Shown here piece by piece: positions 870-58,997 of a stretch of 58,997 nucleotides of DNA; positions within the stretch are counted from its first letter, which is position 1; every line of letters begins with the position of its first letter. Both the position numbers and the translations under genes were made by a program. A model generated the notes under the pieces. That model was given only the letters and a program-made list of their open reading frames with translations. It made no database searches and was not told the origin of the DNA. The stretch is from positions 1-58,997 of the IMG/VR virus record IMGVR_UViG_3300029999_000505. One strand, 5' to 3'. The DNA comes from a virus.

Positions 870-2249
870 TTAGTAAAACTCCGGATCCCGCTCCTGCTGG
901 AGCGAATACTGCTGTGGGCCCTGCGGAACCTTCACGGCTCCGCCCGATTCAAACATCAAGCTCGTTGTGTAATGAACGGCCAGCTTGCCGGTTTCGCCGT
1001 TGCGCTGCTTGGCGATCACCATGTGACCGTCAGGCAGAATCTTTTCGCTGTTGTCATCGATCTCGCGATGAATCAACACGACCGTGGAGGCTTCGTACTG
1101 GATGTCTCCGGACTGGCGAAGGTCAGCGAGCGTCGGCATCATGTTGCGGCCGCGCCCTGTCTTCTCGGTCAACGAGCTGAGCACCAGCACGGCCAGGTGG
1201 TCTTCTTTGGCCAGGTTCGCCATCTTCACGCAGCCATCTGTAACAGCGACGTTGCGACTGTCGACGGCGCCGAAGTTCATCTTCTGCAGATAGTCCACGC
1301 CGACGAACCGGGTGCCGTTCTTCCGCTTGGAGATGCGTGCCCTCGAGCAGATCTGCGGCGCCGTGAGGTTCGTGTCGTCGTCAATGATGAGCGGGAAGCG
1401 TGACACCTGCTCCTCTGCTGCCCGCAGGATGGCTAGCTCCGACGATGGGAGCAGTCGCGGAGTGCGGAGCCATCCAAAGCGCAACGACGCCACACCGGCC
1501 CACAGACGACGCAACATCTGCTCCTTGGTCATCTCCAGCGCGAAGCAGTGTGCCGGCACCTTGTCGAGCCCGAGGCGAATCAAGGTTTGCACAAGCGCCG
1601 ATGATTTCCCCTGCCCAGGGCGGCCGCCCAGGACCGCGAGTTCCCCCTCGACCCACCCGCCGATGTGGCTGTCGAGCGAGTGCAGGCCTGTGGGCAGTCC
1701 AAGAAACGGGCGCTCGTCCTCACGCTCCTGGAGTAGCTTTGCGAACTCACGCTGTGACGTTTGCGCGAGCGGTTCAATGTCCGCAGTGGTGTCCGCGCTG
1801 ATATGCATCAGCCTGGTGTCCGTGTCGGTCAGCAGGGACTCTACGGTGACGCTTTGCTCCTCCGCCATCGCGATAGCGGAATAGCAGACGGTGATCAGCG
1901 CCCTGGCCTGTGCCTTTTCCTTGACGATGCGCACGTACTCTTCAATCGACGGACGCCGCGGCAGGCATTCGGTCAGCGAGAACAGGTACGGCCTGCCGCC
2001 AACCGCGTCAACCTCCTGGTGGCTTTGCAGGGCGTCTGTGAGCGTCACGATGTCTATCGCACGGCCGTCAGCAGCAAGCTCAGCCATGCGCGCAAAAATG
2101 CGCTTGTGTGAGTCTAGATAGAAATCGTTATAGGAAATCTGGTCAGCCTGATTATAGGCGCTGACCCCGTCGAGCAGAACGGCGCCGAGGATGGACTTCT
2201 CCGCTTCGATACTTGCGGGACGGCTGCGCTCGAAGGCCTGCTCGTTCAT
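870..2249 (-). CDS. dnaB: Replicative DNA helicase, DnaB-like
   Basis: 459 residues, the usual DnaB size. Residues about 10-130 match the N-terminal helical domain (ASIEAEKSILGAVLLDG opening). The RecA-like C-terminal domain has Walker A GGRPGQGKS at 208-216, a Walker B-like FVGVDYLQ near 320, and the DLRQSGDIQYEA helicase motif. The usual SQLNR segment is altered to SSLTEKTG. It should unwind the fork 5'-3' as a hexameric ring on the lagging strand. It starts inside the stop of the upstream small gene (ATGA) and lies two genes downstream of the initiator/loader candidate. No phage polymerase is evident, so host replication proteins are probably recruited. Confidence 0.93.
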   Translation of the reverse strand: MNEQAFERSRPASIEAEKSILGAVLLDGVSAYNQADQISYNDFYLDSHKRIFARMAELAADGRAIDIVTLTDALQSHQEVDAVGGRPYLFSLTECLPRRPSIEEYVRIVKEKAQARALITVCYSAIAMAEEQSVTVESLLTDTDTRLMHISADTTADIEPLAQTSQREFAKLLQEREDERPFLGLPTGLHSLDSHIGGWVEGELAVLGGRPGQGKSSALVQTLIRLGLDKVPAHCFALEMTKEQMLRRLWAGVASLRFGWLRTPRLLPSSELAILRAAEEQVSRFPLIIDDDTNLTAPQICSRARISKRKNGTRFVGVDYLQKMNFGAVDSRNVAVTDGCVKMANLAKEDHLAVLVLSSLTEKTGRGRNMMPTLADLRQSGDIQYEASTVVLIHREIDDNSEKILPDGHMVIAKQRNGETGKLAVHYTTSLMFESGGAVKVPQGPQQYSLQQERDPEFY

Positions 2250-2920: not shown

Positions 2921-3849
2921 CGCGTGCCCTCCACGTCTGTGAGCAGTACGTGAACCGGCTTTGGTTTGCTTGCCTGGTCGTAGTTGCCGTTGAGGATGTT
3001 GCCGACGTTCTCCTGGTTCCTGATCAGGAAATCAAAGTTCGCCTTCCATCGTCGGTCGTTGTCACCCATGCAGAAAGGGCTCTTATGGATCTTGTCAAGC
3101 ACGGCTTTGAATCGCGCAGGTGTTAAACCCTCGCTGATCCTCGACCGCAGCTTGTCTGCGCGTGCTGGGCTCAGCGGTAGCTCAACTGCTGGTAGGGCGC
3201 CTCGGACCTTGTTCCAGAAAGCTGCATACTCTGTCGGCGTCCTGTTCTTCGTTGGGGGCGTTAGCTGGAACAGGGCGGGGTCGGCGGCGCCAGCCGTCGA
3301 CACTCTCTCGGTCTTAGAATGCTTTTTCCTTAGAACAGGCTCCGGCTCAGGCTCAGGCTCAGGAGCAGGCTCTGGATCAGGAGCAGGAGCAGGAAGTGGC
3401 TTGTCCGGGCTTTCTGTGCGCACGGCGTGCCCGTTCTTTTCGTGGGCTTCTGGATATTTTGCCTTCAGCCTCTGGCGTTCTGGGTCTGAGAGCCTCCGCA
3501 TACGGGTTGGCTCTCCGTTTGCGTACCGTTCCCCACCTCGCGAAAGCTTGTTATCTGTGGCGTCATCGCTGTGGATGTGCCAGTCGTGGATGATCAGCCG
3601 ATGTGTGGGATCGGGCTCAAGCAACCCAGCGGCCAGCAGCGCCTCTACCATTGCTGCTGGGTCGCCGTCATAGAACATTTCCATCGCGATATCCTCATTG
3701 CTTAACCGTCCGATTGCACCGCTGGGCGCTTGCTCGGCAGTCACATGCCACAACGACTCAGCAACACCTAGAGCGAAGCATGGGCTGATCTGCAGCAGCG
3801 TCGCCAGCCGCCTCACCTTGCGGTGCGTGAGTGTTCCTCGCAGCGCCAA
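2917..3849 (-). CDS. Phage replication initiator / helicase loader-like protein
   Basis: 310 residues from a TTG start right after the stop of the ATPase gene (TGATTG). The N-terminus (MALRGTLTHRKVRRLATLLQ) and the following ~100 residues resemble the winged-helix DNA-binding head of phage O/DnaD-type replication proteins. A Pro-Glu repeat linker covers about residues 150-172. The C-terminal part (SPFCMGDNDRRWKANFDFLI) is the typical tail of such proteins, which bind the origin and load DnaB. Its place two small genes upstream of the DnaB-like gene supports this. The linker is encoded by a hexanucleotide repeat. Confidence 0.75.
   Translation of the reverse strand: MALRGTLTHRKVRRLATLLQISPCFALGVAESLWHVTAEQAPSGAIGRLSNEDIAMEMFYDGDPAAMVEALLAAGLLEPDPTHRLIIHDWHIHSDDATDNKLSRGGERYANGEPTRMRRLSDPERQRLKAKYPEAHEKNGHAVRTESPDKPLPAPAPDPEPAPEPEPEPEPVLRKKHSKTERVSTAGAADPALFQLTPPTKNRTPTEYAAFWNKVRGALPAVELPLSPARADKLRSRISEGLTPARFKAVLDKIHKSPFCMGDNDRRWKANFDFLIRNQENVGNILNGNYDQASKPKPVHVLLTDVEGTR
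3336..3393 (-). repeat. GGCTCA hexanucleotide repeat in the initiator gene
   Basis: About nine imperfect copies of GGCTCA/GGAGCA lie in frame within the replication initiator gene and encode a Pro-Glu linker. Repeats in the middle of an initiator gene recall lambda O, where the origin iterons lie inside the coding sequence. Here the repeat could equally be only a flexible protein linker. Confidence 0.6.
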
Positions 3850-5736
3850 TCAAGCACCCGCTGTCGTGAGTGCGGTTGTGGCGTCGAGTTCCGTAGCCGT
3901 GATGCCTTCTGCTTTCGAAAAGGTGTAAAAAGCTGTGCCCTGGGCTTCGAAGGTGCCGGCGATTCCGGTAGACGTCAGAATGGCCTGGTCAAGGTCCGAC
4001 GCAAGAAGCCCCTGGGCGAAGCTCCACTTGTCTTGTTTGTCGAGAATCTCAGCCGCGTCTGCGATGACAAACTTCAGCCCGGTCCACATTGCGATTGCAA
4101 TCGAGAACGCTACGCCGAGTCTGTAGCTCTCCGACTCGCTAAGCTGGCTTGGCATGAGAACGATGTGTGGGGCGTCCGTCTCGGTGATGCGCAGCTGATA
4201 CGGCTCAATCGTGAAGGCAAGCGCGTAGCCCCACCACGCAAGCACGGCGTTGACCCTTTCCGTGAAGAGGTCCAATCGCTCTGCGATGAGCTTCGCCTTG
4301 ATACCGTTCTGTCCGAAGTAGTCCAACAGCTTCTCAAGCTCGGCCAGGCGTGTTTCAGCAACACCGCGTTCTTCAAGCTGCTTCGTGTAGACTCGCTGGG
4401 CTTCTTCAAGCTCGACGATCTTTACCAGCACCTCCAGCCCGCGAACTACCCTAGCCTTCAGCGCTTCCAGGTCCGCGTGCAAGGCCTCGAGGGTTTCTGG
4501 AAAATCCGGTGGCTGCTGTTCTGGCCCTTCAAACAGGTTGCTGTGCTGTTGGCGTAGATTGGTAAGAGACGTGGTTACGGCATCCTGCCGTTCTCGCTCG
4601 GTCGTGTCCGCTGCAAGCTGGGCAATGGCCCCAGCACTATCGCCGCCTTCCGCGAGTTCCTTTTCTAAGCGATGGACGGCAGCGTGCGCATCATTGAGCC
4701 GTGTCATGTACGGCGCATACATTGCCTTTCGGGACTCCTCAGTAATAAGCGATTTGCAGGTTGGACAAACGCCCTGCTCGTCATGCTTGCTGAGCTTTTC
4801 GATGGTGGCTTCGATGCTCGCTTGCTCGGCGCGCTCTGTGACCAGCAATGCGCGAATCTCCGCGTGTCGCGCCTGTAGCTTCGCGGAGGCCTCCAGCTTC
4901 TTACGGGCGGCCGCGGTCAGAAGGTGTGGGAAGGCCGCCACCAGTCCGGCTAGGCGGTCGATTTCCAACTGACTACGCTGTTGCTGTTCCTTTTGTTGCT
5001 GGGCGCCGGCTGCGCGGGTCGATAGAAGTGTGATTTTGCGGTTCACTTCCGCCTGCTGTGTCTGTATCTCCGTGAGCTTTGCTTTCACGGTGTCCCGACT
5101 TCCGGTCAACGGCTCGGGTTCAACAATGGACTTGAGATCACGCAGCTTGCGGTTAACCTCGGTTCTGGCCATCGTGATCGACTTGTGTGTCGCTTCGATA
5201 GTGGCGAAGAGCGAAGGCTTTTCGATCACAGCAAGGTGGTTTGCTTCGAGCCAGGTCACGACGTCCTTATCCAGCTCGAGCTTCTCCGGAAGGAGCACAC
5301 GCGCCAGCAGTGACGCCTGCTCGTGCTCATTCATCCTGATGAATCGCCACGCATTCAGTGTGGCGTTGATAACGTCCGGGGCGGCAATCTTCTCCACAAG
5401 CCACTCCTGGGCCTGCTTTCCCAGGATTGTGTGGCCCTTGGTTTGTACTTTGAAGTTGCGGCCGGTCGTGCGATCGAGTGTGAGCGTAATGACAACGTCG
5501 TCGGAGCACTCAAGGGCAATAAGGGCGGTCTGCGCACCTTGCTCGATGAGCTTTTCAAATCCCTTGCCAGCCTCGTCGGTTACAGCGCAGCGCCCAGATA
5601 GCGCCATCTCGACGGCCAAGGCTAGCCCGCTTTTTCCACTTTTGTTGAGACCTCGGATGAAGTTGATTCGCTCCAGTGCCAGCGTCGTGTGACGGTGGCT
5701 GCGAAAGTGTTTGAGTTTAACTCTGTCTATGCGCAT
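3850..5736 (-). CDS. Rad50/SbcC-like zinc-hook ATPase
   Basis: 628 residues. The start MRIDRVKLKHFRSH and Walker A GLNKSGKSG (29-37) are typical of SMC/RecF/Rad50 ATPase heads. Residues about 180-480 are heptad-rich coiled coil with a zinc-hook CPTC at 324-327. The C-terminal half-head has a signature-like SQLSESESYRLG and a Walker B-like FVIADAAEILD. Such proteins dimerise through the hook and hold DNA ends, usually with an SbcD/Mre11 nuclease; no SbcD-like gene is seen. The adjacent Cas4-like nuclease is the obvious partner candidate. It is about half the length of bacterial SbcC. Preceded by AAGGAAAGCAACG before the ATG. Confidence 0.85.
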   Translation of the reverse strand: MRIDRVKLKHFRSHRHTTLALERINFIRGLNKSGKSGLALAVEMALSGRCAVTDEAGKGFEKLIEQGAQTALIALECSDDVVITLTLDRTTGRNFKVQTKGHTILGKQAQEWLVEKIAAPDVINATLNAWRFIRMNEHEQASLLARVLLPEKLELDKDVVTWLEANHLAVIEKPSLFATIEATHKSITMARTEVNRKLRDLKSIVEPEPLTGSRDTVKAKLTEIQTQQAEVNRKITLLSTRAAGAQQQKEQQQRSQLEIDRLAGLVAAFPHLLTAAARKKLEASAKLQARHAEIRALLVTERAEQASIEATIEKLSKHDEQGVCPTCKSLITEESRKAMYAPYMTRLNDAHAAVHRLEKELAEGGDSAGAIAQLAADTTERERQDAVTTSLTNLRQQHSNLFEGPEQQPPDFPETLEALHADLEALKARVVRGLEVLVKIVELEEAQRVYTKQLEERGVAETRLAELEKLLDYFGQNGIKAKLIAERLDLFTERVNAVLAWWGYALAFTIEPYQLRITETDAPHIVLMPSQLSESESYRLGVAFSIAIAMWTGLKFVIADAAEILDKQDKWSFAQGLLASDLDQAILTSTGIAGTFEAQGTAFYTFSKAEGITATELDATTALTTAGA

Positions 5737-12583: not shown

Positions 12584-13210
12584 ATGCCGGTCGCTTCAAG
12601 GTCAATCAGTAAGGCTGTCGCAAAGAGAAAGCAGTCGGCGAGAGCGGTCCCAGTTGTCGGGACTCTGCAACTCACCGACCTGATCCCAGACAAGCGGAAC
12701 GCCAACCGGGGCACCAAGCGCGGGGGCGAGCTGGTCGCGTCATCACTGCGCGACTATGGCGCCGGTCGTTCCATTCTCCTCGACAAGCACGGGCGGGTTA
12801 TTGCCGGGAACAAGACGGCGATGCAGGCGGGTAAGGCGGGTTTCGCCGACGTGCTGGTGGTGAAGACGCGCGGCAAGCAACTGGTCGCCGTGCAGCGCAT
12901 GGATCTGGACCTGGATGTGGACGACGCGGCGAAGGCGCTGGCGATCGCGGACAACAGGACCGGCGAGGTCTCACTGGAATGGGATGCCGAGATTCTCAAG
13001 GACATGGCCGGCGAAGTAGACCTTGCCCAGTTCTGGACAAGCGACGAGCTGAGCAAGCTATTCGGCGAGGCCAGCCCGCTGCAGGGGATGACGCAGGAGC
13101 AAGGGCTATCCTATCGCGTCATTGTCGAATGCGATGGGGAGAAGCATCAGGCCACGATCATGCAACAGCTTGAGGCCCAGGGGTTGAAATGCCAGCTATT
13201 GATTTCGTAG
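12584..13210 (+). CDS. ParB/Srx-fold domain protein
   Basis: 208 residues from ATG 12584, preceded by AAGGA. Motifs follow the ParB-like pattern: LIPDKRNANRGTKRG, the GNKTAMQAG box in place of GHRR, and ALAIADNRTGEVSLEWD. The fold is shared by ParB CTPases, sulfiredoxins and several phage enzymes acting on nucleotides or DNA bases. It overlaps the ABC-ATPase/GNAT gene by 22 nt, so the two are coupled and probably act together. A role in partition is unlikely in this setting; DNA modification or packaging regulation is a better guess. Confidence 0.75.
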   Translation: MPVASRSISKAVAKRKQSARAVPVVGTLQLTDLIPDKRNANRGTKRGGELVASSLRDYGAGRSILLDKHGRVIAGNKTAMQAGKAGFADVLVVKTRGKQLVAVQRMDLDLDVDDAAKALAIADNRTGEVSLEWDAEILKDMAGEVDLAQFWTSDELSKLFGEASPLQGMTQEQGLSYRVIVECDGEKHQATIMQQLEAQGLKCQLLIS

Positions 13211-14322
13211 TCGAATCTCAGATCGACCGCACCGTTCGCGTGAAGCAACTAGAAGCAATGTTTGACGTGCCGGCCGCGGAGCGAGCGCGCATCGCGTTCA
13301 AAGGCGACTGTCCCGTTGAGACGTTCGACTGGAACGTCGGACTCATCGTCGGTCCCTCGGGCTGCGGTAAGTCGTCCATTCTCTCGCGGCTGTTCGCAGC
13401 GCCTGTGCAGCTCACCTGGAAGGCCAAGAGCGTCGTGGATGACTTCGACCCTGCGCACTCCATGCAGGACATTTCGGAGATATGTCAGTCGGTCGGCTTC
13501 AACACGATCCCGGCGTGGATGCGACCATACGCGGTCTTATCGAACGGCGAGAAGTTTCGCGTGGAACTGGCGCGGCGTCTGCTGACAAGCGAGGCGCTGA
13601 TAGCCATGGATGAGTTCACCTCGGTGGTCGATCGCCAGGTGGCGCAGATCGGCGCGCATGCCGTTCAGAAGTATGTGCGTAAGCGTGGCAAGCCGCGGTT
13701 CGTGGCGGCGTCGTGTCACTATGACATCCTCGATTGGTTGCAGCCCGATTGGGTGCTGGAGCCAGCGACCATGCACTTTGCGCGGAGGTCACTTCAACGA
13801 CGGCCACCCATTGACATTGAGATTCGTCGCGTCCGATACGAATACTGGGCCCTCTTCGCGCCGTTTCACTATTTGACGGCGGATCTGAATCACGCTGCAG
13901 TCTGCTATTGCCTTTACGCCAACGGGCAGCCTGCCGCGTTCGCCGGCGTTCTGCATCGACCACACCCAAAAGTAAAGAACATCAAGGGGCTCTCGCGTCT
14001 CGTAACGCTGCCTGATTGGCAGGGACTGGGGCTGGCGATGATTCTTGCTGAGAAGCTCGGCGCTGCCTATCGCTCGGCTGGATTTCGCTTCCGGACCTAC
14101 CCGGCGCACCCGGCGCTGATTCGTGCGTTCGGCAAGTGGCCCCAGCACTGGTCACTAGAGAAACGAGCCGGGACATACAGCCCACGCGAGGGGAGAAGCT
14201 CGACGTTGCAGAGCGCAGATAAGGAGCACGCGCCAGGCTTCGGGGGGCGCCCCTGCGCCACTTTCGAGTATGTTGGCGCGCCTATGGAAAGAGCGGAAGC
14301 TCAGGAGTTTCTGGCGGCGTAG
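13189..14322 (+). CDS. ABC-type ATPase fused to a GNAT acyltransferase domain
   Basis: 377 residues. N-terminal ATPase: Walker A GPSGCGKS (55-62), ABC signature-like LSNGEKF (117-123), Walker B LIAMDE (137-142). C-terminal GNAT-like domain about 205-310, with FHYLTADLNHAA, AFAGVLHRPHP and the acyl-CoA loop-like LPDWQGLGLAMILAEKL. There are no membrane segments, so it is not a transporter. Fusions of this type occur in phages beside ParB-like genes. The GNAT fold is also used by Mu Mom, which modifies adenine, so base modification is a hypothesis. The 3' end overlaps the opposite-strand ASCH gene by 41 nt. Confidence 0.85.
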   Translation: MPAIDFVVESQIDRTVRVKQLEAMFDVPAAERARIAFKGDCPVETFDWNVGLIVGPSGCGKSSILSRLFAAPVQLTWKAKSVVDDFDPAHSMQDISEICQSVGFNTIPAWMRPYAVLSNGEKFRVELARRLLTSEALIAMDEFTSVVDRQVAQIGAHAVQKYVRKRGKPRFVAASCHYDILDWLQPDWVLEPATMHFARRSLQRRPPIDIEIRRVRYEYWALFAPFHYLTADLNHAAVCYCLYANGQPAAFAGVLHRPHPKVKNIKGLSRLVTLPDWQGLGLAMILAEKLGAAYRSAGFRFRTYPAHPALIRAFGKWPQHWSLEKRAGTYSPREGRSSTLQSADKEHAPGFGGRPCATFEYVGAPMERAEAQEFLAA

Positions 14323-19496: not shown

Positions 19497-20723
19497 ATGG
19501 AACTAAAAGACCAGCTCACTGCCCTGCAGACAGAGCTGAAAACCTACGTCGACAAGGCTGCCGCTGAGACAAAAGAATTTGGCACCATGGCCCTGTCAAC
19601 CAAAGAAACCGTAACCAAGATTCAGGCCCAGCTAGACGGGATCGATCTGAAGCTTGCGAACAAGATCATTGCCGATCAGGGCCAGGGACCAACGTTGGCC
19701 AAGACCGTCAAGGAGTCTGAGAGCATTCAACGCCTGCTCAAGGACCGTCGTGGCAGCGCCGTTCTGCACCTGAAGGGAAAGGATGTCATGGAGCTGATGG
19801 ACAAGAAGTCAATCATCAGCGCAACGGTATCCGGCACCTCTGAAGGCGATCCGCTTAACCCAGTTGGAGTCGCAACCACCGGGGTGTTGCAAATCGACCG
19901 CACTTCAGGGATCACGGCGGAGGCGCGTCAAGTCCTAATGATTCGGGACTTGCTACCCTCGCGACCGACCACCATGCAGGTGGTGGATTTCGTGAAAGTT
20001 AGTCAGCCGCTTTCCCCTGGCTCTCCCGTTCCTGAGGCATCGCTCAAGCCGGAGAACCAACTCACCTTCACTTCGATCAGCGAAAAGGTAAGGCTGATCG
20101 CAACCTGGATCCCGGCGACAAAACAGGTGCTTGACGACTTTGTTGAGCTGATGGGATTCATTAAGGCCAGCCTTCCGTACTACATCAATTTGGAGGAAGA
20201 GCTTCAGCTTTTAGCAGGTGATGATACCGGTGAAAATCTGCACGGTCTCATCCCGCAGGCATCCACGTATGTTCCAACGTACCTGAATTCAGTCAGGGGT
20301 TGGAACTTCATGGACGTCATCGGAACTGCTATCCAGCAGATCAACGCGGCCAAGGAGATCGATCCGACATTCGTTGTGCTCAACACGAACGACTGGTGGA
20401 CCATCCGTTTGACCAAAGACTCTTTTGGCCGGTACATTCTGGGCGACCCGCAAATCAACGTGCGACCTAACCTCTTCGGGCTTGATGTGGTTTACACCAC
20501 GTCAATCGCGCAGGGTACGTTTCTCGTTGGCAACGGCAATCAGGTGGCAGTCGAGATCCGCGACCGCATGGAAATGCAAGTGGAAATCTCGACTGAGAAC
20601 GCTGATTACTTTGTTCGCAACCTGGTGGCGATCAGGGCTGAGAAACGGATGGCGCTGTTGACCAAACGTCCCAACAGCTTTGTCAGCGGCACCTTCAGTT
20701 CTTCACCAAGCCAAGTAGCTTAA
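19497..20723 (+). CDS. Major capsid protein, HK97 fold
   Basis: 408 residues. Residues 1 to ~100 form a helical delta-domain-like segment, probably removed by the protease. The HK97 core starts near TVSGTSEGDPLNPVG, with conserved VDFVKVSQPLSPG, EKVRLIATWIPATKQ and the A-domain strands near the C-terminus. It builds the icosahedral shell. Followed by a short gap with alternative hairpins. Confidence 0.93.
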   Translation: MELKDQLTALQTELKTYVDKAAAETKEFGTMALSTKETVTKIQAQLDGIDLKLANKIIADQGQGPTLAKTVKESESIQRLLKDRRGSAVLHLKGKDVMELMDKKSIISATVSGTSEGDPLNPVGVATTGVLQIDRTSGITAEARQVLMIRDLLPSRPTTMQVVDFVKVSQPLSPGSPVPEASLKPENQLTFTSISEKVRLIATWIPATKQVLDDFVELMGFIKASLPYYINLEEELQLLAGDDTGENLHGLIPQASTYVPTYLNSVRGWNFMDVIGTAIQQINAAKEIDPTFVVLNTNDWWTIRLTKDSFGRYILGDPQINVRPNLFGLDVVYTTSIAQGTFLVGNGNQVAVEIRDRMEMQVEISTENADYFVRNLVAIRAEKRMALLTKRPNSFVSGTFSSSPSQVA

Positions 20724-20787: not shown

Positions 20788-21129
20788 ATGAGACTCATTG
20801 CAAATAGTCAACTGCGCGGCGAGTACGGCATGGTTGAAGCGAACCAGCAGTTCGATGTGGCCGACGATACGGCTCACAAGCTAATCAAGACCGGCATGGC
20901 TCGCCAAGCAGCACCTCCGACCATCGAGTACGAGACAAAAGTCATCAACCCGCAAGCTCCTATGGTGAGCCCGCGGAGTCCGTTTCGTGACGTGCCTGTG
21001 TCTAACGCGGAACCGGCGAACGTGGCTACCGAAAGCGATAGCCTGCTTCCAAAAGCAAACCTATCCCCAGGCGGAACTTCTTATTCTGGCGGACGGCCAG
21101 GACGTTCGAGACCTACTGCCGGACGATGA
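20788..21129 (+). CDS. Small head-region protein
   Basis: 113 residues from ATG 20788 behind AGAGGAAC. The first ~55 residues (MRLIANSQLRGEYGMVEANQ) look folded; the rest is Pro/Ser-rich. It may be a capsid decoration or head-completion protein by position. Its last 143 nt overlap the glycosyltransferase gene in another frame, which is unusually long for this genome. Its true end could be earlier if a frame change is present. Confidence 0.55.
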   Translation: MRLIANSQLRGEYGMVEANQQFDVADDTAHKLIKTGMARQAAPPTIEYETKVINPQAPMVSPRSPFRDVPVSNAEPANVATESDSLLPKANLSPGGTSYSGGRPGRSRPTAGR

Positions 21130-21574
21130 CCGCGTTCGCTTAATCCATCTAAGCGAGGTCCGCACCATAGGGGAAAAGCGCAACTTCGGTTGCGGCCGCG
21201 CCCAGGGTGACGTGATCTGTCACTGGGATGATGACGACTGGAGCGCCCCTGGGCGACTCGCCGATCAGATCCCGCGGCTAAACGGTATTGCAGTCACCGG
21301 CTACAACGCGATGCGCTTCACCGATGGCGGCCGCTGGTGGAGGTATCAGGGCACCAGCGACTATGCCCTGGGAACCTCGCTCTGCTACCTGCGCAGTTGG
21401 TGGCAGGCGCATCCATTCAAGGCGTGCAACGTTGGCGAAGATAACGTGTTCGTGAACATGGCGCGCAGCGAGCGGGCCATTCTAAGCGTCGATGCTGGCG
21501 AGCTGATGCACGCCACCATTCACCCAAACAACACAAGCCCACGGCACATCACTGCCAACTGGATACCACTATGA
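20987..21574 (+). CDS. GT2-family glycosyltransferase 1
   Basis: 195 residues from GTG 20987. GT-A fold features: MTCLCLTRNRRTWLPKAI at the start, LLILADGQ, and the metal-binding DDDDW near residue 80. The C-terminal part (GEDNVFVNMARSE) fits the acceptor-side region. It probably transfers a sugar from a nucleotide donor; the acceptor is unknown. First of three GT2 genes between capsid and connector. The stop overlaps the next small ORF (ATGA). Confidence 0.85.
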   Translation: MTCLCLTRNRRTWLPKAIACFQKQTYPQAELLILADGQDVRDLLPDDDRVRLIHLSEVRTIGEKRNFGCGRAQGDVICHWDDDDWSAPGRLADQIPRLNGIAVTGYNAMRFTDGGRWWRYQGTSDYALGTSLCYLRSWWQAHPFKACNVGEDNVFVNMARSERAILSVDAGELMHATIHPNNTSPRHITANWIPL

Positions 21575-21729
21575 GAGGTTCACCTGTGATCATCGTTCTT
21601 ATCGTCCTGCTGCTGGTGTTTGGTTTTGGCGGCTATCGTCTTGGCCCAGGTCTTGGCTACTACGGCGGCGGCGGTCTTAGCCTTATTGTCGTGATTGTCT
21701 TGATCCTGCTGCTTCTTCGGATCATCTGA
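21571..21729 (+). CDS. Small membrane protein, DUF3309-like
   Basis: 52 residues: a short N-terminus, a hydrophobic helix (VIIVLIVLLLVFGFGGYRLG), a Gly-rich turn (YYGGGGLSL) and a second hydrophobic helix. This organisation matches the DUF3309 family of tiny bacterial membrane proteins of unknown role. ATG overlaps the stop of glycosyltransferase 1. An envelope role together with the glycosyltransferases is possible. Confidence 0.75.
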   Translation: MRGSPVIIVLIVLLLVFGFGGYRLGPGLGYYGGGGLSLIVVIVLILLLLRII

Positions 21730-21739
21730 GCCTGGCCCA

Positions 21740-22414
21740 ATGAACAGCACTCTGTCAGTCATCGTCCCGAGTCGCACAATGTCCAACCTGATCCCCTGCG
21801 TGCAGGCGGTAACCCATCTGGACGAGTGTGACGTCATCGTGGTGTGGGATCGCAGCCGTGGGAACGACTGGGCGCCCCCATCGGCCGCCTATCGCGTCCG
21901 CGAGGTAGAGCAGGAGTTCATCTACGCCAGAAACTGCAACACGGGGATCATTTCAGCCGGCGACAACGATGTAATTCTGCTCAATGACGACGCGCTCCTG
22001 GAGACGGCCGGTGGTTTTTCTGCCCTGCAGGCGTGGGCAAAACAGTGTCCAGAGTTCGGCATCATCGGAGCGGTAACCAACGTGACGGGACAGCCGCTTC
22101 AGAGACCACTAGGACACTATTGTCCTGGCGGGCCGCGCGAGGTGCCGCACTTCGCCTTTGTCTGCGTTCTGATCCCACGCAGCACCATCAATGCCGTTGG
22201 GCTGCTCGATGAGCGTTACTGCCTGGACTATGGCGTCGAGGACCGCGACTACTGCGAGATGGTCAGGCGCGCGGGGCTGAAGTGCGGCGTCTATGACGGG
22301 TGCTTTGTCGACCACGCCAGCCTGTCGAGCAGCTACCGCGGCAACCCGCTGGCGTCGCGGTCATATGCGCGGAACTGGGAGTTGTACTGCAAAAAGTGGG
22401 GCGTGCCCGCATGA
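21740..22414 (+). CDS. GT2-family glycosyltransferase 2
   Basis: 224 residues. GT-A features: LSVIVPSRTMSNL at the start, ARNCNTGI, and the donor/metal motif LLNDDALL near residue 75-82. GVEDRDYCEMVRRAG is the typical catalytic-base region. Likely a glycosyltransferase acting on a virion or host-surface acceptor. The stop overlaps the next start (ATGA). Confidence 0.85.
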   Translation: MNSTLSVIVPSRTMSNLIPCVQAVTHLDECDVIVVWDRSRGNDWAPPSAAYRVREVEQEFIYARNCNTGIISAGDNDVILLNDDALLETAGGFSALQAWAKQCPEFGIIGAVTNVTGQPLQRPLGHYCPGGPREVPHFAFVCVLIPRSTINAVGLLDERYCLDYGVEDRDYCEMVRRAGLKCGVYDGCFVDHASLSSSYRGNPLASRSYARNWELYCKKWGVPA

Positions 22415-23118
22415 TTCACGGGATGCTTCGGGTCAAGAATGAGGCGCGCTGGATAGAACGCGTCGTGCGATCCATTCAGGCTATCTGCGATGACGTGTTC
22501 GTGCTGGATGACCACTCAAACGACGGAACTCCGGATCTTTGCAGGGCGCTGGGCTGCGTCGTGAATGATTCTCCATTCACAGACATTCATGAGGCGCGGG
22601 ATAAGGATTACCTGCTTGACAAGGTGTGGGCGGGTGGCGCTGCGCTTGGTGACTACTGCCTCATGGTTGACGGCGACGAGGCGCTGCACCAGGACGATCT
22701 GCCGGCGCTTGCACGGGCCGTGAGTCAGAAGCTGTCATGCCTTTCATTTCACATCGTCTACCTCTGGGATATGGAGACCCAGGTGCGCGTCGACCGCTGG
22801 TACAAAGAGTTCCGTCGACCATCTATGTTTCGCCTGGTCAGCCGTGACCTGTCCTTCAAGCGGACAGGATTCGGTGGGAACTTTCATTGCTCGTCGGCTC
22901 CGGCCTCGCTGCTGGTCAGCGTTACATCTGTCCCTGTGAGGCTGCTGCACTACGGCTACCTGCACAAGGAAGATCGGGTAAGGAAATTTCACTGGTACAA
23001 CTCTGTTGACCCGAACAATATGTTCGAGGACTGTTACCGCCACATGGTCATCGGCGATCTGTTTCCGGCCAGCTCGTCCTTCAAGTGGGCCGGGCCGCTT
23101 GAGGTCATAACGCTATGA
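22411..23118 (+). CDS. GT2-family glycosyltransferase 3
   Basis: 235 residues from ATG 22411. Pattern MIHGMLRVKNEARWIERVV, DDVFVLDDHSNDGT and the DGDEAL metal motif belong to the GT2 subgroup related to SunS/WaaE-type transferases. The C-terminal half (FRLVSRDLSFKRTGFGG) is typical of the group. Coupled at both ends by overlapping start and stop codons, so it is expressed with the head module. Confidence 0.85.
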   Translation: MIHGMLRVKNEARWIERVVRSIQAICDDVFVLDDHSNDGTPDLCRALGCVVNDSPFTDIHEARDKDYLLDKVWAGGAALGDYCLMVDGDEALHQDDLPALARAVSQKLSCLSFHIVYLWDMETQVRVDRWYKEFRRPSMFRLVSRDLSFKRTGFGGNFHCSSAPASLLVSVTSVPVRLLHYGYLHKEDRVRKFHWYNSVDPNNMFEDCYRHMVIGDLFPASSSFKWAGPLEVITL

Positions 23119-23819
23119 GTAGCTGGTATCCATTCGGCGGGGTTGGACCTTACGGAACCTATGGGAACCTCGGGCTCTACGGGGCACTCGTCGTCTACGG
23201 CAGCCTCAATCTAACCGTCACGTCTCCTCAGCAAGTTTTCACGGAGGTGATCACGCTTAATGAAATCAAGTCGTTTCTCAAGGTACCGCAGCGGTCACCA
23301 ATCGACCCAGAGGAGGATGCGCAACTCACGGAGTTCATTTCTGCGGCTCGCGAGCAGGCGGAAATACTTCAGAACCAAGATCTCGTGCAAAAGCAATTCG
23401 ACCTGTGCCATGACTATTGGCCGTCGTATCGGGTTGAGATGCGCAAGCCGCTTCAGTCCGTTGATCTGGTGCAGTACACGGACTCTAACGGCGACGTCAC
23501 GGCAATGGTGGAGGACGTTGACTACATCGTGGATGCCTCAAAGGGTCCAGGCATCCTGGCGCCGCCCTATAACGCAACCTGGCCGACGTTCACGCCATGG
23601 CCAAGCTCTGCAATCCTTGTGCGCTTCACCAGCGGCTATGCGTTGACCGATCCATTCTGGCAGGGCCCTGGGGCACGCATTAAGACCGGAATGAAGCTAC
23701 TGATCTCGGCGTGGTATAACAACCGGCTCCCGTTTGAAAAGGGTGCTGGCCCAGGGCAGGAATATCCGTACACCGTGACGTCCTGCCTCACATACGGCGC
23801 GAACGTTAGGGCGAGGTAA
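23115..23819 (+). CDS. Head-tail connector, gp6-like
   Basis: 234 residues. The first ~40 are Gly/Tyr-rich (GGVGPYGTYGNLGLYG). From TLNEIKSFLKV onwards it matches the helical connector family of HK97 gp6, including DAQLTEFISAAREQAE and a C-terminal helical bundle. It forms the ring under the portal. The Gly/Tyr-rich N-terminal extension is not usual for the family. Confidence 0.85.
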   Translation: MSSWYPFGGVGPYGTYGNLGLYGALVVYGSLNLTVTSPQQVFTEVITLNEIKSFLKVPQRSPIDPEEDAQLTEFISAAREQAEILQNQDLVQKQFDLCHDYWPSYRVEMRKPLQSVDLVQYTDSNGDVTAMVEDVDYIVDASKGPGILAPPYNATWPTFTPWPSSAILVRFTSGYALTDPFWQGPGARIKTGMKLLISAWYNNRLPFEKGAGPGQEYPYTVTSCLTYGANVRAR

Positions 23820-25948: not shown

Positions 25949-26299
25949 GTGACGAAGAAACAGTTGGCGGACAGGCTCATCGAAAAGGTTGAGGTACGAC
26001 TCGACGGTGCTGACTGGCCAATCGTGATCACACATAACGTGCTGATCGACTGCGAAGAACTTACTGGGCTGAACGTACTGACCGGAGAAGCGAACATTGT
26101 GCGTCCGTCGGCCAAACTGATACGCGCACTGCTGTATCTCGCTCTGAAGCGCGCCGGGGCAAAATACACACTTGAGCAGATCGGTGACATGATCGGCCCT
26201 CACAACATCGCCATGCTTCAAGAAGGACTACTCAAGGCGTGGGCTGCCTCAATGCCAGCGGAGGGGGATGTAGCGGACCCTATTCGGGCGGTCGAGTAG
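25949..26299 (+). CDS. Tail assembly chaperone G
   Basis: 116 residues from GTG 25949. Small acidic/helical protein (LIDCEELTGLNVLTGEA) located between tube and tape measure. This is the usual position of the lambda G-type chaperone, which coats the tape measure during assembly. Its 3' end overlaps the G-T frame. Part of the ribosomes would shift -1 near 26260-26268. Confidence 0.82.
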   Translation: MTKKQLADRLIEKVEVRLDGADWPIVITHNVLIDCEELTGLNVLTGEANIVRPSAKLIRALLYLALKRAGAKYTLEQIGDMIGPHNIAMLQEGLLKAWAASMPAEGDVADPIRAVE

Positions 26300-26628
26300 G
26301 ACCGCCGATCACTTGGCTAGACGCCTGGGCAGTTGCCCGACAGGAACTGCAACTGACAGACGACGAGTGGCTGGAGATGACACCGCGCCAGCTTCACGCG
26401 CTACGCAAGCGACAGCTCCAGCAGTTACAGCGTGAGGAGTTGCTCGTCGGTATCATCGCGGCGACCTCCGCGAATTACTCATTTTGTCGCCCTGACAGGC
26501 CCCTCAGCCCAGAGGTCTTCATGCTCCACAAGCTGCCACCGCAGCCACTCAAGCCGGTCACTGGCGAAGACATCATGGCAGCCTTCGCTCACATCAAGAA
26601 ACGCCAACCAACGAAAGGAGCAGCATGA
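26239..26628 (+). CDS. Tail assembly chaperone T part, made as a G-T frameshift fusion
   Basis: This frame has no good ribosome binding site. It continues G after a -1 shift and adds about 120 residues (TWLDAWAVARQELQLTDDEW ... HIKKRQPTKGAA). The G frame (start at position 2 mod 3) to this frame (1 mod 3) is exactly -1. G-T fusions are made at low level in lambda-like phages and recruit the tail tube protein. An independent start at ATG 26239 is less likely. Confidence 0.75.
   Translation: MGCLNASGGGCSGPYSGGRVGPPITWLDAWAVARQELQLTDDEWLEMTPRQLHALRKRQLQQLQREELLVGIIAATSANYSFCRPDRPLSPEVFMLHKLPPQPLKPVTGEDIMAAFAHIKKRQPTKGAA
26260..26268 (+). other. Candidate -1 slippery site for G-T
   Basis: GGAGGGGGA lies in the overlap of the two chaperone frames, before the G stop at 26297-26299. 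It is the only homopolymer-like tract there. It is not a textbook XXXYYYZ heptamer; slipping on the five G residues is the simplest model. Confidence 0.5.
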
Positions 26629-45633: not shown

Positions 45634-46791
45634 TCACTGAATCGTTTGGTTTTTCATCTCGCTGAGCTGCGCGAGTTGGGCGGCCGCCTGACGGGGCGCC
45701 TGATACTTTTCGAGCTTCGCCGTCGCTTCGTTCTGATGCTCCTGGCCCGGGTGGGCGTAGCGTAAGACCATCGTCAGCTTGGAGTGTCCCAGCTTCGCCG
45801 CCAGAGTCACGGCGTCGACGCCGGCCTCGGTGCATCGCGTCGCCCAGGTGTGGCGAAAATCGTAGAGCCGGAAGTAGCCAATGTTCGCCGCCTTGCGGGC
45901 GCGATCATGCGCGTTGTTGATCTTCGGCATGGGCTTGTCTGAGTCCAGCTCGTGGGGAAAGAGAAATCTGCCGTTACAGTGAGCCAGCCGCGCGGTCAGA
46001 ATGGCGAAGGCTCGCGCCGTCAGCGACACTTTTCTGCGCGCGGCTTTCGTCTTGCCCTTCGTCACCTTGTAGAAGCTCTGATCCGGGTGCGTCTGGTCGA
46101 GATGAAGATGCCGCGGCTCCATCGCGCAGACCTCGCCCGGCCGCATCCCCGTCTCCAAGATCAGCGAGGCGACGTCATAAAGAGTGGGCGTTGCGTTCGC
46201 AAGATACCGCTCACACTCCTGATACGTCATCACGCGAAAGGTGTCGTCGTCCTCATCGAGAAACTCGACGCCATTTTTGTGAAACGGAGTTCTGAGCAAG
46301 ATGGTGTCGTCACGAAGCGCGAAGTTGAAGACCATGCGCAACAGAGCCAACTCACGATTCACGGTCGCGGGGCAGATCTTTCGTTTTGTCTTCTTACGCG
46401 AGTTCGGGCCCTTACCACGTGCGGTCGCGAAGTCGTTCAGGCGCGCAACTTTGAACTGATCGACGGCGGCGACGTTGATGTTGCCGAGCGACGTCTGCGG
46501 ATCGAAGTGTTTCAGCAACGCGACGGAGCTGACGACGGCTCGCTTGTGAGTTGATGGCGTTCCGGCATGCTTACTTGCGGAGTAGGCAAGAAAGGCATCC
46601 ATCGAGGATTTGAAGGTTGGCGCGTCTCGCCGCTCGACAATGCCGGCCCTCCCCTTCGCGAGCGAATCAATCTTCTCCAGCATGATTGCCTCGGCGGTTT
46701 TTCTGTTCCCCGTGCCCGTCGTTCCCCTGTATCGCACACCGTCGCGTATAAAAGCATAGTGGTAAATCTCGCTGCGTTTAGTCAGTTTCAT
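45634..46791 (-). CDS. int: Tyrosine integrase
   Basis: 385 residues from ATG 46791 (GAGG before it), rather than the longer frame from 46917. N-terminal SAM-like core-binding domain, then the catalytic domain: Arg in ETGMRPGEV, YDFRHTWAT (box II, Tyr in place of the first His, Arg kept), LGHSKLTMVLRYAHP (His and the nucleophile Tyr). It would recombine attP with tRNA-Cys. The gene ends 80 bp from the att core, and arm sites flank the core. Confidence 0.93.
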   Translation of the reverse strand: MKLTKRSEIYHYAFIRDGVRYRGTTGTGNRKTAEAIMLEKIDSLAKGRAGIVERRDAPTFKSSMDAFLAYSASKHAGTPSTHKRAVVSSVALLKHFDPQTSLGNINVAAVDQFKVARLNDFATARGKGPNSRKKTKRKICPATVNRELALLRMVFNFALRDDTILLRTPFHKNGVEFLDEDDDTFRVMTYQECERYLANATPTLYDVASLILETGMRPGEVCAMEPRHLHLDQTHPDQSFYKVTKGKTKAARRKVSLTARAFAILTARLAHCNGRFLFPHELDSDKPMPKINNAHDRARKAANIGYFRLYDFRHTWATRCTEAGVDAVTLAAKLGHSKLTMVLRYAHPGQEHQNEATAKLEKYQAPRQAAAQLAQLSEMKNQTIQ

Positions 46792-46877
46792 TGCCTCGTT
46801 CTCCCTCTTAGTCTCGAAACCTGTCGAGACTATCACACCGGCAGCGCCGTGCTTGAAAACAGAAGGCTTCCGCGCCG

Positions 46878-47122
46878 TCACTCGTTCGGAAAGAGCTTCA
46901 TCCAGCAAGTGCCACACATTCCGCGCTGATCAGCAGCTCGCGCTGGGCTGGGTCGAGTGACGTCAGCGCGTTCTGTGCCAAGTCTCCAGACTGCCAGCGC
47001 TGCCACTCTGCGATGGGAATATCGAGCGGATGACTGGTTCGACACTTCGCGCAGACCACGAGGGCCCGAACGAACGTCTGGCCATCTCGGCTCAGAGTTG
47101 TAACCGATGCATAAGTCGCCAT
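46878..47122 (-). pseudogene. Zinc-ribbon gene missing one nucleotide
   Basis: From ATG 47122 the frame has CAKC near residue 24 and runs to RELLISAECVALAG at 46898. A one-base change at AGCGCGGA leads into GMCGTCWMKLFPNE, which supplies the second CxxC needed for a zinc ribbon. The span to that stop is 245 nt, one short of a multiple of three. The restored ending (LISxGxCGTCW) resembles other small phage zinc proteins. Confidence 0.65.
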
Positions 47123-58058: not shown

Positions 58059-58997
58059 TTACCCTTCGAGCAACGTGGTTTCAGGCATGTCAGGCCGCCG
58101 CTCTGCCGTTTTGGTGCGCTCCGTGATGGTGGCTAGTAATTCACGCTCGTAAAGTGCAAGCGCAGCCGGCATGCCGTCGATCAGCTCGCAGTTCGGCGGC
58201 GCGAGGAAGTGAACGTGGTTAAGAAGGTGCGTGAACGGGTATGGGAACGGGGGCATCATCTGAAAGCGGTCGAAGTATGCGGCCGCCTGATAGTGAGCAA
58301 GGAACAGCTTCACGGCGTAGCGGCGAGCCCGTGCGTGGATCTGCGCTGGCGGTAGCTTTCCCTCTTTGTAATGCTTGTAGGCATCGGTGGTCTTCTTTAC
58401 TCTCTCAAGCCCAACCTTTGCCTGCTCAGCAAACATCAGCGCGTCGTTACGCTGCTGCTCAATACCCTTGCGGGCGACGTAGACCTTTCCGTACACATCG
58501 TTCTCATTGCTCTGCACCTTGACGAAGCTCTCGCCCAGCTTGAACGCCGTGAGCGTTTTCAGCGAAGCGTTGTAAGGACGCTTCTCACCCTTCAGCCACT
58601 TCTTTGTCGGGTCGAGGCCTGCGAAGCTCCAAATGTGGCCAACGGTCGGGCACTTCTCAATGTCGATGTGAGCCAGAAGCCCGGCGCTGATGACGGGCCC
58701 AATTCCGCAGATGCTCTTGGCCCACCGGCTGATCGCGTTCGCGTCGGTCCACTTGTCGAGCGCACGCTTAATTTGATTCTCCAGGCCCTCGTTCTGGTCG
58801 GCAAGCCACTCGATCACCTGGTGTGGCTCGTTGCCAGCGTTCAGCGTTCGCACCTGGTGGTCCGCGGAGATGCGGTTTTCTTGAAGCATGTAGTAAGCAT
58901 CCACAAGGTATCGAGCCTCGCGAACTGACAACGTTGTGGACGCGTTTGCAAGGTCTTTTGTAAGACGCTGCAGAGGCTCTAAAACAAGTTCGGTCAT
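58059..58997 (-). CDS. IS110-type helix-hairpin-helix domain protein, not a full transposase
   Basis: 312 residues, start codon on the last base of the window. Residues about 95-180 match the C-terminal Transposase_20 domain of IS110/IS116 (ICGIGPVISAGLLAHIDIEK, IWSFAGLDPTKKW, HhH motif). The N-terminal RuvC-like DEDD domain of IS110 transposases is missing and the conserved SG after the GL.P segment is absent. A DNA-binding protein derived from, or related to, IS110 recombinases is more likely than an active transposase. The gene may be complete here; its leader would be at base 1 if circular. Confidence 0.75.
   Translation of the reverse strand: MTELVLEPLQRLTKDLANASTTLSVREARYLVDAYYMLQENRISADHQVRTLNAGNEPHQVIEWLADQNEGLENQIKRALDKWTDANAISRWAKSICGIGPVISAGLLAHIDIEKCPTVGHIWSFAGLDPTKKWLKGEKRPYNASLKTLTAFKLGESFVKVQSNENDVYGKVYVARKGIEQQRNDALMFAEQAKVGLERVKKTTDAYKHYKEGKLPPAQIHARARRYAVKLFLAHYQAAAYFDRFQMMPPFPYPFTHLLNHVHFLAPPNCELIDGMPAALALYERELLATITERTKTAERRPDMPETTLLEG

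Follow-up and report, generated by a model that had tools for sequence, protein, structure and literature searches.

A glycosyltransferase cassette in the head module of a temperate soil phage, with a predicted +1 frameshift joining its first enzyme to a small head-module protein

We analysed the 58,997 bases of the IMG/VR virus record IMGVR_UViG_3300029999_000505 (the window, meaning this whole stretch of DNA), which represents a soil phage, and focused on the genes lying between its major capsid protein (MCP) and head–tail adaptor. These genes encode three predicted glycosyltransferases (GTs), designated GT-A, GT-B and GT-C, and a small hydrophobic peptide of the DUF3309 family. Our data indicate that a programmed +1 frameshift very likely fuses the small head-module protein encoded immediately after the MCP to GT-A. 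A cassette that is co-expressed with the head genes, glycosylates the virion and includes this frameshift-fused GT-A is the explanation that best accounts for the whole, and we consider it reasonably likely.

Results

A predicted frameshift site links the small head-module ORF to GT-A

The small head-module open reading frame (ORF), which is phrog_2616-like, spans positions 20788..21129 of the plus strand, starts at ATG 20788 with a GAGG upstream and encodes an unshifted product of 113 amino acids. It overlaps GT-A (20987..21574, plus strand; GT2 domain PF00535, E value 3e-14, 53.7 bits against a cut-off of 23.3) by 143 nucleotides. The GT-A frame is closed by a stop codon 18 nucleotides upstream of GTG 20987, which is therefore the only codon in the window at which GT-A could start, and no Shine–Dalgarno sequence precedes it in the window. 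The four bases 20983..20986 (plus strand) form a predicted +1 frameshift site, UUU_C, within the small-ORF reading CCG UUU CGU GAC. The slip site holds no stop codon, and its TTT is followed by CGT, a minor arginine codon (37 of the 346 arginine codons in the window). When TTTC is read as one step, the product is a 261-residue protein (20788..21574, plus strand) in which a small domain of 66 codons, the last being TTT, is predicted to continue into GT-A. The first-pass annotation had begun this GT at 20987: the gene itself stands, whereas its 5′ boundary is very probably misplaced, as it has no Shine–Dalgarno sequence and lies inside an ORF overlapping in the +1 register. GTG 20987 itself probably encodes an internal valine.

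We searched IMG/VR using the MCP, GT-A, GT-B and GT-C as queries and, after removal of sequences with more than 90% nucleotide identity, assembled 63 loci in which GT-A is accompanied by a homologue of the small ORF in an overlapping frame. At five loci the site was located 3 nucleotides from the tblastn start, the match having begun at residue 2. Across the family, the small-ORF frame stays open through the junction and is overlapped by the downstream GT-A frame in +1. The slip site of the relatives reads CCn TTT CGT in the small-ORF frame, so that a shift of +1 leads into the GT-A frame. Directly 5′ of the first GT-A codon stands TTTC at 59 loci and TTTT at two. The first GT-A codon itself is GTG (39 loci), GTC (16), GTA (3), GCG (2) or another codon; since any valine-like codon is accepted there, this position does not carry a start signal. 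At 19 of the 63 loci, the GT-A frame contains no ATG, GTG or TTG between the upstream stop and codon 5, and an AGGA, GGAG or GAGG tetramer 4–16 nucleotides upstream is present at only six.

The conservation extends to a synonymous position. The phenylalanine codon of the slip site is TTT in 61 of 61 cases, compared with 15 TTT and 45 TTC at the other conserved phenylalanine column of the small ORF, and with 111 TTT and 262 TTC among the phenylalanine codons of the GT-A domain. Parsimony on the GT-A tree assigns no codon change to the slip site and 13 to the control column. Stand-alone GT-A relatives in other contexts never have TTTY at that place (0/132), and 114 of these 132 have an in-frame start within 60 nucleotides; within the family, an ATG occurs in that interval at only 6 of 63 loci. 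Two further features of the relatives surround the junction: GAGGTG(A), which resembles a Shine–Dalgarno sequence, and CGCGG are common 19–25 nucleotides upstream of the first GT-A codon, and one arginine column upstream of the slip site uses CGG in 49 of 50 sequences.

Ten distant relatives carry a similar small N-terminal domain and GT-A in a single frame, five of them with strong similarity (E value 1e-14 or better; L257, L261, L105, L262 and L259), the N-domain similarity being weaker in the other five. The two-domain protein therefore exists without any frameshift. The isolate Acidobacteriaceae bacterium KBS 96 carries a prophage with the site as well; it reads CCG TTT CGC there, and a start codon is absent from the GT-A frame. 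The pattern is therefore an artefact neither of metagenome assembly nor of a single contig.

The synonymous-site conservation, the missing starts, the absence of the motif from the controls and the in-frame fusions together support a programmed +1 frameshift. This agrees with the description of UUU_Ynn as a sequence on which bacterial ribosomes are particularly liable to shift +1, and with the influenza PA-X site, UCC_UUU_CGU, at which shifting is low-level and stimulators are not evident (Atkins et al., PMC5009743). Several observations weigh against it. The motif is missing from L258 (TAC C) and, in L060, from a second GT copy (TCT T); no conserved RNA structure was found upstream or downstream of the slip site; and at 22 of the 63 loci, the window included, a GTG immediately after the UUU_C-type site is the only start, so that internal initiation is possible for any single phage.

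Two alternatives were considered. GT-A could be translated on its own, without frameshifting, if re-initiation or coupling with the overlapping small ORF allowed GTG 20987 or some other weak start to be used, an option to which the GTG in the window, the 22 loci just mentioned and a further 17 of 63 that have another start farther upstream lend some support. The startless loci, the rarity of Shine–Dalgarno-like tetramers and of nearby ATG codons, the invariant TTT, whose wobble base lies outside the supposed gene, and the existence of in-frame fusions argue against this model, which we consider very improbable and reject as a family-wide mechanism. Alternatively, the fusion may be real and purely regulatory, the frameshift serving only to keep GT-A at a low level, with no docking of the small domain on the head. 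Four-fold site diversity is 0.55 in the overlap and 0.62 downstream, so the unshifted tail is only weakly constrained and probably not important, as this alternative would have it, and PA-X provides a precedent for low-level +1 shifting without evident stimulators (PMC5009743). The in-frame, shift-free fusions nevertheless keep a small N-terminal domain, which suggests that the domain itself matters, and we view a solely regulatory role as unlikely. Two other candidates were discarded: dual coding of the overlap past the slip site, given the same weak constraint, and transcriptional slippage, as the site contains no long homopolymer.

Organization and recurrence of the cassette

The first-pass annotation had described three GT genes and a DUF3309 peptide, tightly coupled and situated between capsid and connector, and this description holds. 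Upstream lies the MCP gene (19497..20723, plus strand), an HK97-fold protein (PF05065, 2e-32; phrog_10, 2e-54), and downstream the head–tail adaptor Ad1 (23115..23819, plus strand; phrog_40, 9e-11, and also phrog_442). Between them, GT-A is followed on the plus strand by the DUF3309 gene (21571..21729; 52 amino acids; PF11752, 2.6e-6, 27.9 bits against a cut-off of 22.3), GT-B (21740..22414) and GT-C (22411..23118). The stop of one gene and the start of the next overlap in ATGA fashion at 21571, 22411 and 23115, and a gap of 10 nucleotides precedes GT-B. The true start of GT-C is ATG 22411; its ORF had been listed from 22300. The N-terminus of Ad1 (window 23115–23250) has an unusual glycine- and tyrosine-rich extension, YPFGGVGPYGTYGNLGLYG, ahead of the conserved domain.

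The arrangement recurs in dozens of contigs as MCP, small ORF, GT-A, then GT-B and GT-C in varying order and spacing, then adaptor. Chance does not account for it, as dozens of the virus contigs are independent of one another and Acidobacteriota prophages have it too. The cassettes of relatives contain additional genes for methyltransferases (PF13489, PF08241 and FkbM, PF05050), NAD-dependent epimerases (PF01370, RmlD), DegT aminotransferases, WbqC, YdjC and more GT2 enzymes; judged by their domains, most of these extra genes encode enzymes that make or decorate glycans. GDSL hydrolase and TIR-domain proteins occur as single cases, the latter (PF13676, 1e-30) lying between GT-B and GT-C at L080:3284–4270 and perhaps representing a defence gene.

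Among isolated phages, tblastn returned no match for GT-A or GT-B and one weak match for GT-C, in GX15bay, and sequence searches returned no match to the small domain. Pfam and PDB were uninformative for the small domain, yielding no more than a weak DUF7210 match in two distant members.

The DUF3309 peptide had been proposed to anchor the enzymes in the membrane. By similarity, we detected it only in near-identical contigs and in none of the other relatives, and the small proteins that occupy this slot elsewhere are mostly neither hydrophobic nor membrane proteins. We therefore abandoned the anchoring role for this lineage-specific peptide.

Predicted enzyme activities and a candidate acceptor

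All three genes encode GT2 or GT-A-fold glycosyltransferases by predicted activity. GT-B, which has no Pfam match, was assigned by a weak match to phrog_2456 (glycosyltransferase, 8e-4), by its NDDALL motif and by its AlphaFold model (mean predicted local distance difference test, pLDDT, 91.6), which resembles GT-A-fold enzymes with a polypeptide GalNAc-transferase ranked first. GT-C matches PF00535 (2e-9, 38 bits against a cut-off of 23.3) and PF13704 (3e-8), bears the motifs DDHSxDxT and DGDE and ends in a conserved C-terminal block, HYGYLxxEDRxRKYxWYN. Relatives keep the acidic DxD-type motifs invariant or almost invariant (D81–D83 in HWDDDDW of GT-A, NDDA of GT-B and DGDE of GT-C). The best PDB profile matches of GT-C are GmaR (6e-9) and SunS (1e-5), and a Foldseek search with its model (mean pLDDT 94.9), which like that of GT-B matches GT-A-fold enzymes, ranked SunS/ThuS first. 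The best solved relatives of GT-C, the S-glycosyltransferases SunS and ThuS and the flagellin glycosyltransferase GmaR, thus all act on peptides or proteins.

A putative acceptor is found at the C-terminus of the MCP, which in the window is FVSGTFSSSPSQVA and bears a Ser/Thr-Ser-Pro tail (GTFSSSPSQVA, window 20679–20720). Among the 63 readable MCPs of cassette phages, 57 end in xSP(A), for example GTFTTSP(A), whereas in four relatives in which no GT was found at this position (L028, L031, L032 and L034) the MCP stops at GxF. Three short contigs with the tail and an unusual gene order (L012, L017 and L026) were counted neither way. The tail is missing from six cassette phages, and the GT-less, tail-less set consists of four related contigs; because of both points, the link between the tail and the cassette is a hint only. 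Also to be set against protein glycosylation are the remoteness of the PDB matches (about 14–17% identity, including the fold match of GT-C to SunS/ThuS) and the resemblance of GT-A to polysaccharide synthases, namely heparosan and chondroitin synthase domains.

The first-pass annotation had left open whether the enzymes glycosylate virion proteins or change the host surface. Virion glycosylation is plausible and is the better reading, favoured by the soluble GTs, their co-travel with head genes, the similarity of GT-C to peptide-acting enzymes, the sugar-nucleotide and methyltransferase genes of the relatives and the MCP tail. Surface alteration, in the form of seroconversion or superinfection exclusion, would suit a temperate phage; such phages commonly carry surface-modifying genes, and phage D3 is a known serotype converter. 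None of the three enzymes, however, has a transmembrane segment of the GtrB type (peak Kyte–Doolittle values are 1.75 for GT-B and below 0.9 for GT-A and GT-C), no flippase or polymerase was seen among the cassette genes scanned, and the genes are embedded in the head module, the first being predicted to be fused to a head-module protein. Gtr-type seroconversion was accordingly set aside, and we judge host-surface modification in general to be quite improbable. Another target could be the bases of the phage DNA or some other small acceptor, as phage GTs can hypermodify DNA with glycans (work cited in PMC12619734). The location of the genes in the head module and the action of the nearest solved relatives on peptides or polysaccharides point away from this option, to which, with the window annotated in part, we attach hardly any credence.

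Phage, host and gene setting

The window belongs to a tailed phage whose structural module is HK97/D3-like and runs rightward in the order TerL, portal, prohead protease, MCP, adaptor, head closure and tail genes. An integrase gene (45634–46917, minus strand) identifies it as temperate by gene content, and a DnaB helicase is encoded at 870–2249 (minus strand). No close DNA relative of the record was found among the isolated phages searched. The nearest prophage relatives reside in Acidobacteriota genomes, including the KBS 96 isolate and Candidatus Sulfopaludibacter, which makes an acidobacterium the most likely host; a genome search gave a match at 1e-40 in 4 of 299 genomes of the class.

Other regions of the window also drew our attention. 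Directly 5′ of the terminase genes, an ABC-type ATPase domain is fused to a GNAT acetyltransferase domain (13189–14322). Two overlapping ORFs (25949–26299 and 26239–26628) just 5′ of the tape-measure gene lie where frameshift-produced tail assembly chaperones are usually encoded. The right end of the window cuts a transposase fragment of the IS116/IS110/IS902 type (58059–58997, minus strand).

Possible −1 counterparts in other phages

Phage D3 (L288, NC_002484) presents the same order of MCP, orf6.5, orf7 and adaptor (region 3706–4424). The product of orf7 belongs to phrog_4603, named alpha-2,3-sialyltransferase, and its frame runs upstream into orf6.5 in the −1 register, with a canonical −1 heptamer, C_CCA_AAG, in the correct phase at the junction. 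In Tetraselmis virus S20 (L293, ~953), an in-phase C_CCU_UUG marks the point at which the enzyme frame opens; in Psp6 (L291, ~905), the linker contains an in-phase T_UUU_UUG. The enzyme frame lacks a start codon in both. D3, Psp6 and S20 may thus use −1 frameshifting to produce an analogous fusion. As the D3-group genomes are nearly identical at the junction and a GTG is also present in the enzyme frame, the pattern stays a prediction based on three lineages. In PAJU2 (L292, 965–1534), the homologue of D3 orf7 follows the head–tail adaptor rather than preceding it and is annotated as structural, which would fit enzymes carried on particles.

Discussion

We propose that the small post-capsid protein is made in two forms, a short one and a minor +1-shifted one. 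At UUU_C, the tRNA-Phe would re-pair from UUU to UUC and translation would go on in the GT-A frame, so that the minor form would be a 261-residue protein combining the head-module domain with the glycosyltransferase. The small domain would dock GT-A on the head and thereby bring the enzyme to the particle. The first sugar is probably added to a virion protein by GT-C, further extension of the glycan would fall to GT-B and the tethered GT-A in an order we can only suggest, and the Ser/Thr-Ser-Pro tail of the MCP would be the most likely acceptor.

Elements of this model have precedents. Mycobacteriophages encode GTs that glycosylate the C-termini of their capsid and tail-tube proteins (Freeman et al. 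2023, as cited in PMC12363180 and PMC12619734), and the phage-encoded enzymes and probable capsid-tail acceptor recall Che8, Corndog and Myrna as presented in those two sources. The system described here differs from the mycobacteriophage one by its three predicted GT2-type enzymes inside the head module, one of them a putative frameshift fusion, and by its probable Acidobacteriota hosts. The shift-prone UUU_Y is shared with YopN–TyeA and influenza PA-X, the latter having the identical UUU_CGU (PMC5009743); unlike in those cases, the predicted shift joins a head-module protein to an enzyme, in more than 60 phage sequences. Short and extended forms of head-gene products, with in-frame versions as well, are known for the T7/T3 capsid, for the +1 shift of Listeria phage PSA and for Ig-like domains (PMC5009743). 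There the extensions are Ig-like or serve display, whereas here the extension would be a glycosyltransferase. As in Gag-Pol (PMC5009743), a structural N-terminal part may localize an enzyme produced by frameshifting, an analogy that involves no homology and in which packaging is hypothetical on the phage side.

The −1 junctions raise the tentative possibility of a recurrent, Gag-Pol-like strategy in which a post-capsid docking protein is joined to different glycan enzymes by programmed frameshifting, placing the enzyme on or in the particle. Under such a strategy, GT2 enzymes would be attached by +1 shifting at UUU_Y in Acidobacteriota phages and sialyltransferase-like enzymes by −1 shifting in D3, Psp6 and S20. 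We rate this generalization as somewhat doubtful.

Frameshift-made extensions and virion glycosylation are each known in phages, and the two combined seem to form a new variant; our search of the open-access literature found no description of the two together, which is not proof of absence. If the model is correct, automatic gene calling cuts the enzyme wrongly throughout this phage group, here at GTG 20987, and the group would offer a large natural set of bacterial +1 UUU_Y sites, with the well-studied D3 as the natural place to look for a −1 counterpart. It would also answer how a cytosolic glycosyltransferase reaches the phage particle and account for the location of such genes between capsid and connector.

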